DNA from: Streptomyces roseochromogenus subsp. oscitans DS 12.976
GTDB lineage: Bacteria > Actinomycetota > Actinomycetes > Streptomycetales > Streptomycetaceae
Length of the DNA stretch: 29,534 nucleotides
Direction: 5' to 3'
Assembly: GCF_000497445.1 (NCBI RefSeq)
Contig: NZ_CM002285.1
Location: 4,036,718 to 4,066,251, forward strand
Shown here: positions 7,511 through 29,534 of the stretch, one piece after another
How positions within the stretch are numbered: position 1 is the first letter of the stretch
Layout: each line of letters starts with the position of its first letter
Made by a program: the position numbers and the translations under genes
Notes under the pieces: model-generated
What the model was told of the DNA's origin: nothing
What the model saw: only the letters and a program-made list of their open reading frames with translations
Database searches by the model: none

Positions 7511-9198
7511 GAGTTGGTCGGGGACTGAGTCGGGGGTGGGGAGTCGGAGGATGGAGGTGGGGTTGTGGGGGTGGGGGGCGGGGTCGAGGTGGTTGGGGGT
7601 GGGGACTGGGTGGTCGGTGGGGGTGTGGGGGGTTGGGTGGGAGTGGTGGGTGGGGTGGAGGAAGGGGGCGGGGACGTGGGGTGGTGGGTCGGGGCCGTGC
7701 CGTAGCCGTCGATGGAGACCACCGTGCCGGCCGGGGAGATCGCCACCTGCGCGCGCCAGAAGCCGGAGGGCTCGCGGAGGTGGTCGACGTACATCTTGAT
7801 CGTCAACGTTTCGCCGGGGGCGAGGGTTCCCGCGGACCGGCTGAAGTAGAGCCAGGGCGCCGAGGTGGAGGCGGACCAGCGGACCGGGGCCGTGCCGGAG
7901 GCGGTTAGGGTGATCAGCGTGGTGTCACCGTCGTGCGCGGCGCTGACATCGACCCGCCCGGAGCCCTTGTCGCCCGCCCCGGAGACGCTGACGACCTCCA
8001 CGGAGACGTCCGCCTTGCCGTCCTGGCCGATGTGCGCGCCGGGCTTCACGCGCGCGTTCCCGGCGTTCTCGTAACCGCCGGCCGGGTCGCCGCCGAGGGC
8101 ATCGGGGCCCTCCGCCTCGCGCGCGGTGGCCGAGGGGCCGTCCCCCTCCGCCGTCGGGGCACCCCGGTAGGCAGCCCACAGGGCCAGGACGGGGGCGGCC
8201 ACCACCGTGGCCACGACCGTCGTCGTCACCGCACGCGCGCGCAGCCGGTCCCGGCGGGCCGCGCGGTCCTTGGGGTCCATCGGGAAGCCACGCCGGTCGA
8301 AGCGGGGTGCCGCGACGCCACGCGCGCGTGAGTGGTGCGCCAGAGCAACGTGCAGTGCCGCGCGAGGGGCTTCGAGGACGGGCAGCTCGGCCGGGGTGAC
8401 CGTGGCGCCGGGCCAGCGGCCGGGGACGGCTCGCTCGGCGGTACGGCGACAGCACGGGCAGTCGTCCACGTGCCGGACCAGCTCGCGGCGCAGGGCCGTA
8501 CTGAGGACCAGCCGGCTGTCCCCCGTGAGGTGGGCCACGCTGGGACAACCGCCGGTCTCGACGACGGCGAGGGCCGCGCGGGTGCGCTCGACCTCGCAGG
8601 CGGCCGTGGCCAGCAGGTCGCGCGCGGCGGCGGGTTCCATGCCGAGTACGGCGCCGACCTCGTGCGCGGCCAGGTGGTGGCGGACGGCCAGCTCCAGGGC
8701 CTCGCGCTGCTCGGGGGTCGTACCGGCCGCCTCCGGCCAGGCCAGCAGGGACAGTTCGCTGCGGCGCTGCTCCTGGACCTCCGGGGCCACGGTCTGCTCG
8801 GGGACCCGGCTCGCGGCCGCGGAGCGGCCCGCCGCGTGGGTGGCCTGACGTTTCTGCTTGGCCTCGGCCAGCTTGCGCAGGCACGCCCAGCGGGCCAGCG
8901 CGTACAGCCAGGCCCTGCGGTCGCCGGCGGCCTCGGGGACGCGGTGTCCGCGCCGCTCGGCCAGGGCGAGGACGTCGCCGAGGGCGTCGGTGGCCGCGTC
9001 GTGGTCGCACAGGACCGACAGACAGTAGGTGAACAGCCCGTCCAGGTACGGCTCGTAGCGGGCCGGCGGCCGTTGGGCGAGGGTGCGCCCGGGGACGCGG
9101 TCGCGCCCCTCCCGCGCCTCTCGTGCGGCACGCGCCTCGCGGTGCGCCCAGTGCGTGCCGCTGGTGCGGGTGGTGGTCTCCGGGCTACTGCTCATCAC
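7483..9198 (-). CDS. Membrane fusion protein: ECF-sigma-like domain, anti-sigma zinc motif, TM helix, extracellular BACON-like domain, Pro/Thr tail
   Basis: 571 residues. Residues 48-115 resemble sigma region 2 (YEPYLDGLFTYCLSVL, then AWLYALARW). Residues 160-212 resemble region 4 with its helix-turn-helix (TPEQREALELAVRHHLAAHEVGAVLGM). A zinc anti-sigma motif H243-x3-C247-x2-C250 (HVDDCPCC) follows. There is one membrane helix at about 323-345, then a secreted beta-rich domain (about 385-495; APWLYFSRSAGTLAPGETLTI is BACON/immunoglobulin-like), and a tail of about 75 residues rich in P, T and S. Similar ECF-type proteins fused to their own anti-sigma and membrane parts are known in actinobacteria. 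The sigma parts are weak, so promoter recognition is unproven. The GTG at 9196-9198 follows TACGGT by 7 nt (leaderless-like); the ATG at 9193-9195 is next to it. Confidence 0.88.
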   Translation of the reverse strand: MMSSSPETTTRTSGTHWAHREARAAREAREGRDRVPGRTLAQRPPARYEPYLDGLFTYCLSVLCDHDAATDALGDVLALAERRGHRVPEAAGDRRAWLYALARWACLRKLAEAKQKRQATHAAGRSAAASRVPEQTVAPEVQEQRRSELSLLAWPEAAGTTPEQREALELAVRHHLAAHEVGAVLGMEPAAARDLLATAACEVERTRAALAVVETGGCPSVAHLTGDSRLVLSTALRRELVRHVDDCPCCRRTAERAVPGRWPGATVTPAELPVLEAPRAALHVALAHHSRARGVAAPRFDRRGFPMDPKDRAARRDRLRARAVTTTVVATVVAAPVLALWAAYRGAPTAEGDGPSATAREAEGPDALGGDPAGGYENAGNARVKPGAHIGQDGKADVSVEVVSVSGAGDKGSGRVDVSAAHDGDTTLITLTASGTAPVRWSASTSAPWLYFSRSAGTLAPGETLTIKMYVDHLREPSGFWRAQVAISPAGTVVSIDGYGTAPTHHPTSPPPSSTPPTTPTQPPTPPPTTQSPPPTTSTPPPTPTTPPPSSDSPPPTQSPTNSETPSPSGG

Positions 9199-9354
9199 CT
9201 GTGCGACCGTAGGCGGCTGCGGAGTGCCCCTTCTCTAACCTTGAGCACTTTTAATCCGTACGGGTGAAACGATCCCTCATAAGGGGACAGGAACCCTTTG
9301 TTCCATGGCTCGATCCCGACGGGTCATGGCCGATACTGGTTCACCCACCCACGG

Positions 9355-9434
9355 CCAGTTCATCGCACGGATGGCCCGTTCATCCCATGGATGACTCGTT
9401 CATCCCACAGACGGCCCGTTCATCCGACCGACGG
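9355..9434. repeat. 20-bp tandem repeat, four copies
   Basis: Units start at 9355, 9375, 9395 and 9415. All share CGTTCATC (first copy AGTTCATC) followed by a variable middle and GACGG/GATGG-like end. The array lies about 55 bp upstream of the radA -35 box. Confidence 0.85.
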
Positions 9435-9439
9435 CCCAG

Positions 9440-9481
9440 GGAGACCTTTCGGCGGTCCGGGGAGACCCTTCGGCGACCCGG
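9440..9481. repeat. 21-bp tandem repeat, two copies
   Basis: 9440-9460 and 9461-9481 both read GGAGACC(T/C)TTCGGCG followed by (G/A)(T/C)CCGG. The array abuts the radA promoter, which begins at 9489. Confidence 0.85.
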
Positions 9482-9488
9482 GGACCGA

Positions 9489-9511
9489 TTGTCAGTGGTG
9501 CGGGCTACGGT
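9489..9511 (+). promoter_or_regulatory. RecA-NDp (PafBC-type) DNA-damage promoter of radA
   Basis: TTGTCAGTG (9489-9497), 8 nt, TACGGT (9506-9511) is a full match to the mycobacterial LexA-independent damage promoter motif tTGTCRgtg-N8-TAnnnT. The radA ATG begins 6 nt after the -10 box, so transcription should start at the A of ATG. Confidence 0.8.
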
Positions 9512-9517
9512 TTCCGC

Positions 9518-10927
9518 ATGGCTGCCCGTACCAAGACCACCAAGGACCGCCCGTCCTACCGCTGCACCGAGTGCGGCTGGCAGACGGCCAAGTGGCTCGG
9601 CCGCTGCCCCGAATGCCAGGCCTGGGGCACGATCGAGGAGTACGGCGCGCTCACGGTCCGTACGACGGCACCCGGCCGCGTCACCACCTCCGCGGTCCCC
9701 ATCGGCCAGGTCGACGGCCGGCAGGCCACCGCCCGCACGACCGGCGTGCCCGAGCTGGACCGGGTGCTCGGCGGCGGCCTGGTGCCCGGTGCGGTCGTGC
9801 TGCTCGCCGGCGAGCCCGGCGTCGGCAAGTCCACGCTGCTGCTGGACGTGGCCGCCAAGTCCGCGAGCGCCGAGCACCGCACGCTCTATGTCACCGGTGA
9901 GGAGTCCGCGAGCCAGGTGCGGCTGCGCGCGGACCGTATCGGCGCCCTGCACGACGAGCTGTATCTGGCCGCCGAGACCGACCTGTCCGCTGTCCTCGGC
10001 CACCTGGACGAGGTGAAGCCGTCCCTGCTGATCCTCGACTCGGTGCAGACGGTCGCCTCCCCGGAGATCGAGGGCGCGCCCGGCGGCATGGCGCAGGTGC
10101 GGGAGGTGGCGGGAGCGCTGATCCGCGCCTCCAAGGACCGCGGCATGTCCACGCTGCTGGTGGGCCATGTCACGAAGGACGGCGCGATCGCCGGCCCGCG
10201 CCTGCTGGAGCACCTCGTGGACGTCGTGCTCCACTTCGAGGGCGACCGGCACGCGCGTCTCCGTCTCGTCCGGGGTGTGAAGAACCGCTACGGCGCCACG
10301 GACGAGGTCGGCTGCTTCGAGCTGCACGACGAGGGCATCACGGGCCTCGCAGACCCGAGCGGGCTTTTCCTGACACGTCGGGACGAACCGGTCCCGGGCA
10401 CCTGTCTGACCGTCACCCTGGAGGGCCGCCGCCCGCTGGTGGCCGAGGTCCAGGCGCTGACCGTGGACTCCCAGATCCCCTCCCCGCGGCGTACGACCTC
10501 GGGCCTGGAGACCTCGCGCGTGTCGATGATGCTGGCCGTCCTGGAGCAGCGCGGCCGGATCAGCGCGCTCGGCAAGCGGGACATCTACTCCGCGACGGTG
10601 GGCGGGGTGAAGCTGTCGGAGCCGGCCGCCGACCTCGCGGTCGCGCTGGCGCTGGCCTCCGCCGCCAGTGACACCCCGCTGCCGAAGAATCTGGTGGCCA
10701 TCGGCGAGGTGGGCCTCGCGGGCGAGGTCAGACGGGTCACGGGCGTGCAGCGCAGGCTCGCAGAGGCGCACCGGCTGGGCTTCACGCACGCGCTCGTGCC
10801 GACCGATCCGGGCAAGGTGCCGCCCGGCATGAAGGTCCTGGAAGTGGCCGACATGGGGGACGCGCTGCGGGTGCTGCCACGCTCGCGTCGCCGAGAGGCC
10901 CCACGGGAGGCGGAGGAGCGCCGGTAG
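9518..10927 (+). CDS. radA: DNA repair protein RadA (Sms)
   Basis: RadA is a RecA-like ATPase that drives branch migration and processing of recombination intermediates. The 469-residue product has family length. It has an N-terminal zinc finger (C16-x2-C19 ... C30-x2-C33), Walker [10 protein letters not shown] at 98-106, Walker B SLLILD at about 169-174, the RadA signature KNRYG at 255-259 (usually KNRFG) and a C-terminal Lon-protease-like domain from about 340 ([34 protein letters not shown]). No ribosome site precedes the ATG, agreeing with a leaderless mRNA from the damage promoter. disA follows 80 nt downstream, a pairing conserved in actinobacteria and firmicutes. Confidence 0.97.
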
Positions 10928-10930
10928 ACT
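10925..10930 (+). promoter_or_regulatory. Possible separate -10 box for disA
   Basis: TAGACT overlaps the radA stop codon and lies about 80 nt before the disA start. No good -35 was seen, so disA may simply be read from the radA promoter. Confidence 0.25.
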
Positions 10931-11007
10931 TTGCGCAGGTCTCGCCCGTCCGTACGAACCGAGTGCGGGTACGGGAGCGCGTCAGAACCTGCGACCGGAG
11001 GAGTGCA

Positions 11008-12132
11008 GTGGCAGCCAACGACCGGGCAGCAGCTCCCGGAAAGTCCGGTGGGAGTGCCGGTTCCGATGGCCTGATGCGCGCCTCGCTGAGCGCCGTGGCT
11101 CCCGGTACGGCCCTGCGTGACGGCCTCGAGCGCGTTCTGCGCGGCAACACCGGCGGGCTCATCGTCCTCGGCTCCGACAAGACGGTCGAGGCGATGTGCA
11201 CGGGCGGTTTTGTCCTGGATGTCGAGTTCACCGCGACCCGGCTGCGGGAGCTGTGCAAGCTCGACGGCGGCATCGTGCTCTCCTCCGACCTGTCGAAGAT
11301 CCTGCGCGCCGGAGTGCAGCTGGTGCCGGACCCGACGATCCCGACGGAGGAGACGGGCACCCGGCACCGCACGGCGGACCGGGTCAGCAAGCAGGTCGGC
11401 TTCCCCGTGGTCTCCGTCTCCCAGTCGATGCGGCTGATCGCCCTCTACGTCGACGGTCAGCGCCGCGTCCTGGAGGACTCGGCGGCGATCCTGTCCCGGG
11501 CGAACCAGGCGCTGGCCACGCTGGAGCGGTACAAGCTGCGCCTGGACGAGGTGGCCGGCACGCTGTCGGCGCTGGAGATCGAGGACCTGGTGACGGTGCG
11601 GGACGTGTCCGCCGTCGCGCAGCGGCTGGAGATGGTCCGCCGTATCGCCACCGAAATCGCCGAATACGTGGTCGAACTGGGCACGGACGGGCGGCTTCTC
11701 GCGCTCCAGCTGGAGGAGTTGATCGCCGGGGTCGAGCCCGACCGTGAGCTGGTCGTCCGGGACTATGTCCCCGAGCCGACGGCGAAGCGGTCCCGTACGG
11801 TCGAGGAGGCGCTGTCCGAGCTGGACGCGCTGAGCCATGCGGAGCTGCTGGAACTCGGCACGGTGGCGCGTGCGCTGGGCTATACCGGGTCGCCGGAGAC
11901 GCTGGACTCCGCGGTGTCCCCACGGGGCTTCCGGCTGCTGGCGAAGGTTCCGCGCCTTCCGGGCGCGATCATCGACCGGCTGGTCGAGCATTTCGGGGGC
12001 CTGCAGAAGCTACTCGCCGCCAGCGTGGATGATCTGCAGACCGTGGACGGTGTGGGAGAGGCGCGCGCGAGGAGCGTGCGGGAGGGTCTGTCCCGGTTGG
12101 CCGAGTCGTCCATCCTGGAGCGGTACGTCTGA
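11008..12132 (+). CDS. disA: DNA integrity scanning protein, diadenylate cyclase DisA
   Basis: DisA joins two ATP into the second messenger c-di-AMP and scans DNA for branched structures. 374 residues. The N-terminal DAC domain has the catalytic D86 in LDGGIVLS (family consensus DGA; here DGG) and the ATP-binding RHR at 119-121 ([11 protein letters not shown]). A helical linker follows, then a C-terminal helix-hairpin-helix DNA-binding domain ([21 protein letters not shown]). The GTG at 11008-11010 is chosen because GGAGGAG lies at 10997-11003 and the resulting start MAANDRAA fits Streptomyces DisA; an upstream in-frame start at 10963 has no such site. c-di-AMP controls potassium and osmotic balance in Streptomyces. 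It probably shares a transcript with radA. Confidence 0.97.
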
Positions 12133-12186
12133 GTTCCGGCCGGGCGCCCAATGGCTCGGGGGGCGTGGTGGTCTTGCGGGTCCATG

Positions 12187-12221
12187 GTGGCTGCTCGCGC
12201 GGTTCCCCGCACCCCTCAGGC
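12187..12221. repeat. Dispersed Streptomyces intergenic repeat
   Basis: The phrase GGCTGCTCGCGCGGTTCC followed by CCGCACCCCTCAGG corresponds to a very common Streptomyces intergenic sequence (recalled, not searched). It lies between the convergent disA and membrane-protein genes. Nothing else was recognised in the 182-bp gap. Confidence 0.55.
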
Positions 12222-12314
12222 AGGCAAGCCGCAGCGTGCTTTTAGGAGCGCGTGGAACTGCCCGAACGCCCCCGCACACCCGCACCCGGCGACGAACCCG
12301 CGCCGCCCCCGTCC

Positions 12315-29125: not shown

Positions 29126-29148
29126 ACAATAGTGGGAGATCCCGACAA
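29126..29148 (-). promoter_or_regulatory. Promoter of the BlaI-family gene, RecA-NDp-like spacing
   Basis: Leftward TTGTCG (29143-29148), 11 nt, TATTGT (29126-29131). The TTGTCR and TANNNT cores and their spacing equal those of the RecA-NDp motif, but the middle gtg reads GGA. Confidence 0.4.
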
Positions 29149-29467: not shown

Positions 29468-29534
29468 GCCTCCAGAGTAGCCACGGCGACCGACACGAAA
29501 GGTACGGGGTACGCATACCCCCCGACGCCCCTCC

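Follow-up and report, generated by a model that had tools for sequence, protein, structure and literature searches.

A very likely PafBC-type promoter with a probable leaderless start at Streptomyces radA, and a probable separate promoter for disA

The site directly upstream of radA in Streptomyces roseochromogenus subsp. oscitans can, with good confidence, be read as the promoter of this gene. It would be a RecA-NDp promoter, a class that PafBC switches on in mycobacteria, and would give rise to a leaderless radA mRNA. The neighbouring gene disA would be served by a basal promoter of a TAGACT type together with damage-induced read-through from radA. That radA has a leaderless promoter of the PafBC type is very likely. 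The analysis covered a stretch of 29,534 nucleotides, which we call the window, together with the host genome and relatives. The argument builds on the following features:

9489..9497, plus strand: −26 element of PafBC type in the radA promoter, TTGTCAGTG, covering about −29 to −21 for a transcript that begins at the ATG
9506..9511, plus strand: −10 element TACGGT, covering about −12 to −7 for a transcript with that start
9518..10927, plus strand: radA (RadA/Sms DNA repair protein), ATG start, stop codon TAG at 10925-10927; TIGR00416 with 507.9 bits, cut-off 403.05
10919..10959, plus strand: near-invariant element CGCCGGTAGACTTTGCSCWGGTCTCGCCCGTCCGTACGAAC, which surrounds the stop codon of radA and includes TAGACT (10925-10930); proposed as a promoter for disA itself
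11008..12132, plus strand: disA (diadenylate cyclase), GTG start after GGAGGAG; NF010009 with 527.8 bits, cut-off 201 (scan from 11005); start placed by tblastn and the Shine-Dalgarno sequence

The −26 element is followed by eight bases (9498-9505), the −10 element, six further bases (9512-9517) and the ATG of radA. The preliminary description had claimed a fit to the RecA-NDp motif tTGTCRgtg-N8-TAnnnT and a start codon 6 nt beyond it. Indeed all defined bases match, and the ATG lies at the claimed distance. A pattern scan found this one exact match only in the window. When up to three mismatches were allowed, 7 matches were obtained compared to a mean of 3.7 for shuffled sequences, which is not significant, so that within the window only the exact match carries weight. 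Two RecA-NDp-like sites were seen on the minus strand near the end of the window: in one case (29474-29496) 6 nt separate the site from the downstream ATG of a predicted protein of 59 residues; in the other (29126-29148) a predicted gene for 136 residues follows at 44 nt. Two short tandem arrays are located 5' of radA, at 9353-9437 (20 bp, 4.2 copies) and 9432-9484 (21 bp, 2.5 copies); among the best 80 of 565 named loci, only one (L129) contained repeat-like matches. A free-text literature search for TTGTCAGTG gave no title on this subject among the matches listed.

One could alternatively regard the motif as a constitutive housekeeping promoter, in which TTGTCA serves as a poor −35 element for the primary sigma factor and PafBC is not needed. 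The −10 box agrees with the usual TANNNT, as this reading would demand. TTGTCA and TACGGT are, however, separated by 11 bp compared to the 16-18 bp of a canonical −35 element, and a consensus scan of 9190-12300 found no promoter of the sigma-70 type. The lack of a canonical −35 element at 16-18 bp from the −10 box is a property of RecA-NDp promoters. Furthermore, the conserved part is the extended TGTCRGTG, which marks repair genes (see below). A housekeeping promoter is thus improbable, and we retain the RecA-NDp reading.

We compared the upstream regions of radA among Streptomyces, as had been proposed in the preliminary description, and in other families. The radA starts were anchored by tblastn for 30 unnamed and 80 named Streptomyces loci, the latter being the best 80 of 565; the two sets overlap partly, and two loci (L102 and L142) share their upstream sequence. 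A genus sample comprised 61 genomes, three of which (G197, G204 and G223) provided no usable radA start. Outside the genus, where a RadA match was found in 177 genomes, 72 loci were chosen from the similarity-sorted matches listed. The host RadA itself is 99% identical to that of S. alanosinicus, and its nearest relatives among the best 80 of 565 named ones belong to Streptomyces.

The relaxed form TGTC-N12-TANNNT was present upstream of radA at 137 of 138 Streptomyces loci (30/30 unnamed, 79/80 of the best 80 of 565 named, 28/28 other genus genomes) and at 59 of the 72 chosen loci from other families. Reversed text gave no match at any of the 210 loci. The core TGTCRG-N10-TANNNT was found at 30/30 unnamed, 78/80 named (best 80 of 565), 25/28 genus and 52/72 other-family loci. 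The full strict motif was less constant, with 15/30, 47/80 (best 80 of 565), 2/28 and 5/72 loci, respectively. Among the 13 other-family loci that missed the relaxed form, ten kept this layout apart from one mismatch within TGTC, for which reversed text gave 0 of 72; one was a masked slice and two showed nothing. The fixed motif columns averaged 1.93 bits of information over 99 distinct Streptomyces rows, compared to 0.28 bits for 58 upstream columns. The distance between the motif end and the start codon was 6, 7 or 8 nt in 194 of the 196 relaxed matches. The two exceptions, with 25 nt, come from one family, and the start may be misplaced there.

This fixed distance bears on how radA is translated. 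The radA reading frame opens at the first ATG, GTG or TTG past the upstream stop in the list of open reading frames. Hence there is no earlier start that would place the promoter within the gene. A sequence resembling a Shine-Dalgarno element preceded radA in none of the best 80 of 565 named loci. A −10 element close to the start codon and a missing Shine-Dalgarno sequence are the marks of a leaderless gene. Due to the fixed spacing of 6-8 nt and the missing Shine-Dalgarno sequence, the radA mRNA is probably leaderless. An in-frame start codon 6-10 nt below the motif was also found at 17 of the 33 exact motif copies of the host genome described below, with one of these (L007) on a weak reading frame. 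For recA, which is among the host sites, the chosen start may lie further down.

The motif is strongly enriched in the host genome (9.78 Mb), where the exact form occurred 33 times compared to 0 for the reversed pattern. For the looser core TGTCRG-N10-TANNNT 95 copies were found compared to 16 for the reversed pattern. Across 150 sampled Streptomyces genomes we counted 3739 exact copies against 14 of the reversed pattern. Each of the 150 genomes carried at least one, with a median of 23 copies per genome and a range of 5-44. A sample of the whole class gave a match in 145 of 197 genomes, many of them with one or two only. The motif is not a product of chance. In two genomes of one family (G174 and G154, family f19) exact motifs were unusually numerous, with 119 and 63 copies, and in the second of these the 23-mer TTGTCGGTGCCCGCCCGTAGGGT was recurrent, as if located on a repeated element.

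The genes below the host sites were characterized by an NCBIfam scan of 32 of the 33 strict sites (a 32-codon fragment, L025, was left out) and of 7 of the 62 sites that match the core only. Repair or replication genes follow 12 of the 33 strict sites (32 scanned), in agreement with the repair-rich regulon of RecA-NDp promoters. They comprise a DinG/YoaA-like helicase, recA, pcrA, radA, dnaX, ogt, uvrB, uvrA, a Hel308-like helicase, ruvC, a RarA-like ATPase and ung. Several of these names rest on hits that stay under the curated cut-off, since the gene runs past the end of the locus or the family model is only a related one. Other strict sites precede genes without a repair function, i.e. those for ribosomal protein S6, folB, a phytoene-desaturase-like protein, a dipeptidase and a sigma factor, and several genes had no NCBIfam family match. 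The S6 gene lies 70 nt below its strict site (L013, host contig C1:4773814) and is followed by an ssb-like gene, such that a single-strand-binding protein may belong to the regulon. Among the seven genes scanned at core-only sites were ligA, a PcrA-related helicase, recQ, a DEDDh exonuclease and sbcD; the predicted start of ligA is 292 nt away from its site. A second host contig (C2, 119 kb, perhaps a plasmid) contains core-type sites at 92786 and 96666, each followed by a predicted small gene at a distance of 7 and 37 nt, respectively.

Control of radA by LexA as part of the SOS response would be another way to connect the gene with DNA damage, and an effect of LexA on radA has been reported for C. 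glutamicum (PMC9960051). A LexA box near the promoter would then be expected. The S. venezuelae consensus CGAAC-N4-GNNCG was, however, absent between −300 and +30 of radA at all 80 loci (best 80 of 565 named) as well as from the window, and radA is unnamed in the main text of the S. venezuelae study (PMC9380542). We therefore rejected LexA control of radA, which we regard as exceedingly improbable in Streptomyces. In the gap between radA and disA, the same consensus was found on either strand in 3 of 79 named Streptomyces loci. A variant with N5 occurred in 40 of the 79 gaps and resembles two LexA half-sites whose spacing is wrong. Since N5 differs from the published spacing, we do not claim a LexA-like site there.

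A promoter of the RecA-NDp class further demands its activator. The host genome encodes a pafB-pafC pair downstream of two genes of the Pup-ligase family. The two products are similar to their counterparts in the M. smegmatis PafBC bound to RNA polymerase (7p5x), with E-values of 8.2e-58 for PafB and 3.8e-52 for PafC. The host PafB shares the segment RMFERDK, residue for residue, with PafB of M. smegmatis and of Arthrobacter (6sj9), such that the DNA-reading helix is kept. By counting along the 6sj9 chain, which assumes no numbering offset, its arginines are residues 44 and 48; R44 and R48 of PafB have been considered candidates for reading DNA (PMC6789036). A different activator, e.g. another WYL-domain protein or some unknown factor, might read the site instead of PafBC: WYL regulators are abundant in Actinobacteria (PMC6789036), and our searches of open-licence papers on PafBC and Streptomyces returned neither a demonstrated Streptomyces regulon nor PafBC binding data. 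Given that both subunits are encoded next to Pup-ligase-family genes and that RMFERDK is identical in the three organisms, such a replacement is highly improbable. PafBC itself is thus the preferred reader of the site.

We also considered whether the motif is tied to the presence of PafBC across the class. A PafC match was obtained in 176 of 197 class genomes, i.e. nearly everywhere, and thus offers no usable contrast; the idea was dropped. Ten of 20 listed genomes with no PafC match, several of which are incomplete, still had one to five exact motifs. The radA core was present in two genomes with no PafC match (L248 and L289), both 78% complete. In the host, a small gene placed between the two Pup-ligase-family genes is preceded, at a distance of 35 nt, by a core-type site (L086, contig C1:7779250). 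Judged by eye and by its position this would be the gene of the Pup protein, and the site would link the regulator to its own locus.

The preliminary description had proposed for radA a LexA-independent promoter of the PafBC type together with a leaderless start. As far as sequence can tell, this proposal is strongly supported by conservation, enrichment in the genome, the presence of PafBC, the promoter geometry and the missing Shine-Dalgarno sequence and LexA box.

The described arrangement closely resembles known systems. Mycobacterial PafBC promoters contain the core TGTCRG-N10-TANNNT (PMC8151990), the −26 element has been described for PafBC of M. smegmatis (PMC11804915), and the PafBC regulon of mycobacteria has been reported to include radA (PMC8922275). 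Core, −26/−10 geometry and the inclusion of radA are thus shared. Here, in contrast, the organism is a Streptomyces, PafBC dependence is predicted from sequence, and most host sites carry A at the R position (TTGTCAGTG). Within the genus, a RecA-NDp promoter was described for recA of S. rimosus (Ahel 2002, as cited in PMC5087735) and for SCO6735 of S. coelicolor, which was reported to be UV-inducible (PMC5087735). Motif and genus agree with our case, while the genes differ; radA adds the fixed spacing of 6-8 nt and disA as a neighbour. A more distant likeness exists to the sigma adaptation by the SARP regulator AfsR of Streptomyces, where the activator is placed between sigma region 4 and a poor −35 element, as is PafBC (PMC10936776); activator, site and signal all differ.

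The 2022 S. venezuelae study (PMC9380542) stated that an initial search suggested the PafBC motif not to be conserved in this species. It also described a recA reporter that responded only after prolonged mitomycin C treatment. Such a late response does not speak for a fast PafBC response. At the same time the study leaves open a RecA/LexA-independent damage response in Streptomyces. Our genus-wide data, from 150 genomes among which S. venezuelae was not identified, speak against the remark on missing conservation.

We next turn to disA, for which the preliminary description had raised, as a condition, transcription from the radA promoter. In the host disA starts 80 nt below radA. Among the best 80 of 565 named loci it was in all cases the next gene on the same strand, with a gap of 79-82 nt in 77 of them, and it was recovered from 13 of the 20 other-family slices. 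The gap contains no terminator-like site; a weak candidate was seen inside radA at 10346-10363, for which shuffled sequences gave a mean of 0.6. Adjacency on the same strand with a short gap free of a terminator is what an operon requires. Since disA is next on the same strand and the gap lacks a terminator-like site, read-through from radA into disA is likely. An RNA structure in the gap was considered and rejected: the structure scan gave a z-score of −0.42, and no Rfam match was obtained in 9200-11100.

The sequence before disA nonetheless points to a promoter of its own for this gene. Of 110 Streptomyces loci, 107 carry a TAGACT box upstream of disA, in most cases at a distance of 82-85 nt from the start codon, compared to 1 in reversed text; in the host the box overlaps the radA stop codon. 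About 40 nt around it are near-invariant in 98 distinct rows, and the element was kept in two loci (L105 and L124) where the radA stop codon lies elsewhere. The PafBC half-motif was present upstream of disA at none of the 110 loci. Because of the conserved box, the near-invariant element and the missing half-motif, disA probably has its own promoter, with the TAGACT box as candidate −10 element. For the 13 disA loci of other families, TANNNT occurred upstream in 12 compared to 3.0 expected. A consensus scan revealed no recognisable −35 element for the box. A Shine-Dalgarno-like sequence precedes disA at 79 of the 80 loci (best 80 of 565 named). The first 24 bases of CGCCGGTAGACTTTGCSCWGGTCTCGCCCGTCCGTACGAAC occur once in the host genome at up to three mismatches, and the element may contain more than a −10 box.

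Published data on disA fit such separate control: DisA levels were constant throughout the development of S. venezuelae (PMC10117811), and DasR represses disA in S. erythraea, binding upstream of the gene there and in S. coelicolor (PMC11076491). DasR thus concerns the same radA/disA region, though as a different regulator with a different signal, and no clear dre-like site stood out here. The best dre-like candidates scored 11 of 16 for the region preceding radA and 10 of 16 for the gap, close to the 10.4 and 9.6 of shuffled sequences, and were rejected.

If radA and disA instead formed one operon read from the radA promoter only, c-di-AMP synthesis would rise directly with DNA damage. The constant gene order, the short gap free of terminator-like sites and the designation of radA-disA as an operon in Mycobacterium and C. 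glutamicum (PMC11653572, PMC9960051) are in agreement with this. Such an operon should have no promoter-like element of its own before disA, but one is present: the TAGACT box in nearly all Streptomyces loci with no PafBC half-motif in any, the excess of TANNNT in other families and the persistence of the 40-nt element where the radA stop codon is shifted all argue against it, as do the constant DisA levels in S. venezuelae. We thus consider a purely shared promoter unlikely. The conditional claim of the preliminary description is only partly supported: adjacency and the gap free of terminator-like sites are in its favour, whereas the conserved −10-like box, the own Shine-Dalgarno sequence and the missing PafBC motif speak against the radA promoter as the only source of disA transcripts. 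If disA has its own promoter, the link between DNA damage and c-di-AMP would be an addition by read-through and not the sole drive.

The proposed mechanism starts with the activation of PafBC by single-stranded DNA derived from damage, as found by others for M. smegmatis. PafB would then read TTGTCAGTG about 26 bp upstream of the start while PafC would contact the housekeeping sigma factor, both as shown in M. smegmatis. RNA polymerase would melt TACGGT and start at, or at most 1-2 bases from, the radA ATG, giving the leaderless mRNA that the spacing and the missing Shine-Dalgarno sequence suggest. Translation of disA would begin from its own Shine-Dalgarno sequence. Its transcription would probably combine a basal level from the TAGACT-type promoter with damage-induced read-through from radA.

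RecA-NDp promoters were already known in mycobacteria and for Streptomyces recA and SCO6735, as was radA as part of the mycobacterial PafBC regulon. New, as far as we found, are the genus-wide evidence from Streptomyces against the remark in PMC9380542, the constant distance between motif and radA start across the class, and the box that belongs to disA separately. Taken together, it seems rather probable, though less firmly so than the promoter assignment itself, that Streptomyces possess a damage regulon of the PafBC type, tens of genes in size, which the 2022 S. venezuelae study did not find. The leaderless PafBC promoter of radA, with its spacing of 6-8 nt, would then be ancestral in Actinomycetes, and disA would have been kept behind radA on a separate promoter, whose −10 element overlaps the radA stop codon, providing basal c-di-AMP plus damage-induced read-through. 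The occurrence of the motif in every sampled Streptomyces genome and its position before recA, uvrA, uvrB, ruvC and radA in the host bear on the question of a RecA/LexA-independent damage response left open by PMC9380542. Two claims that are easily merged can be kept apart: radA is very likely damage-inducible, while disA, which encodes the c-di-AMP synthase, is probably not under the control of the radA promoter alone.
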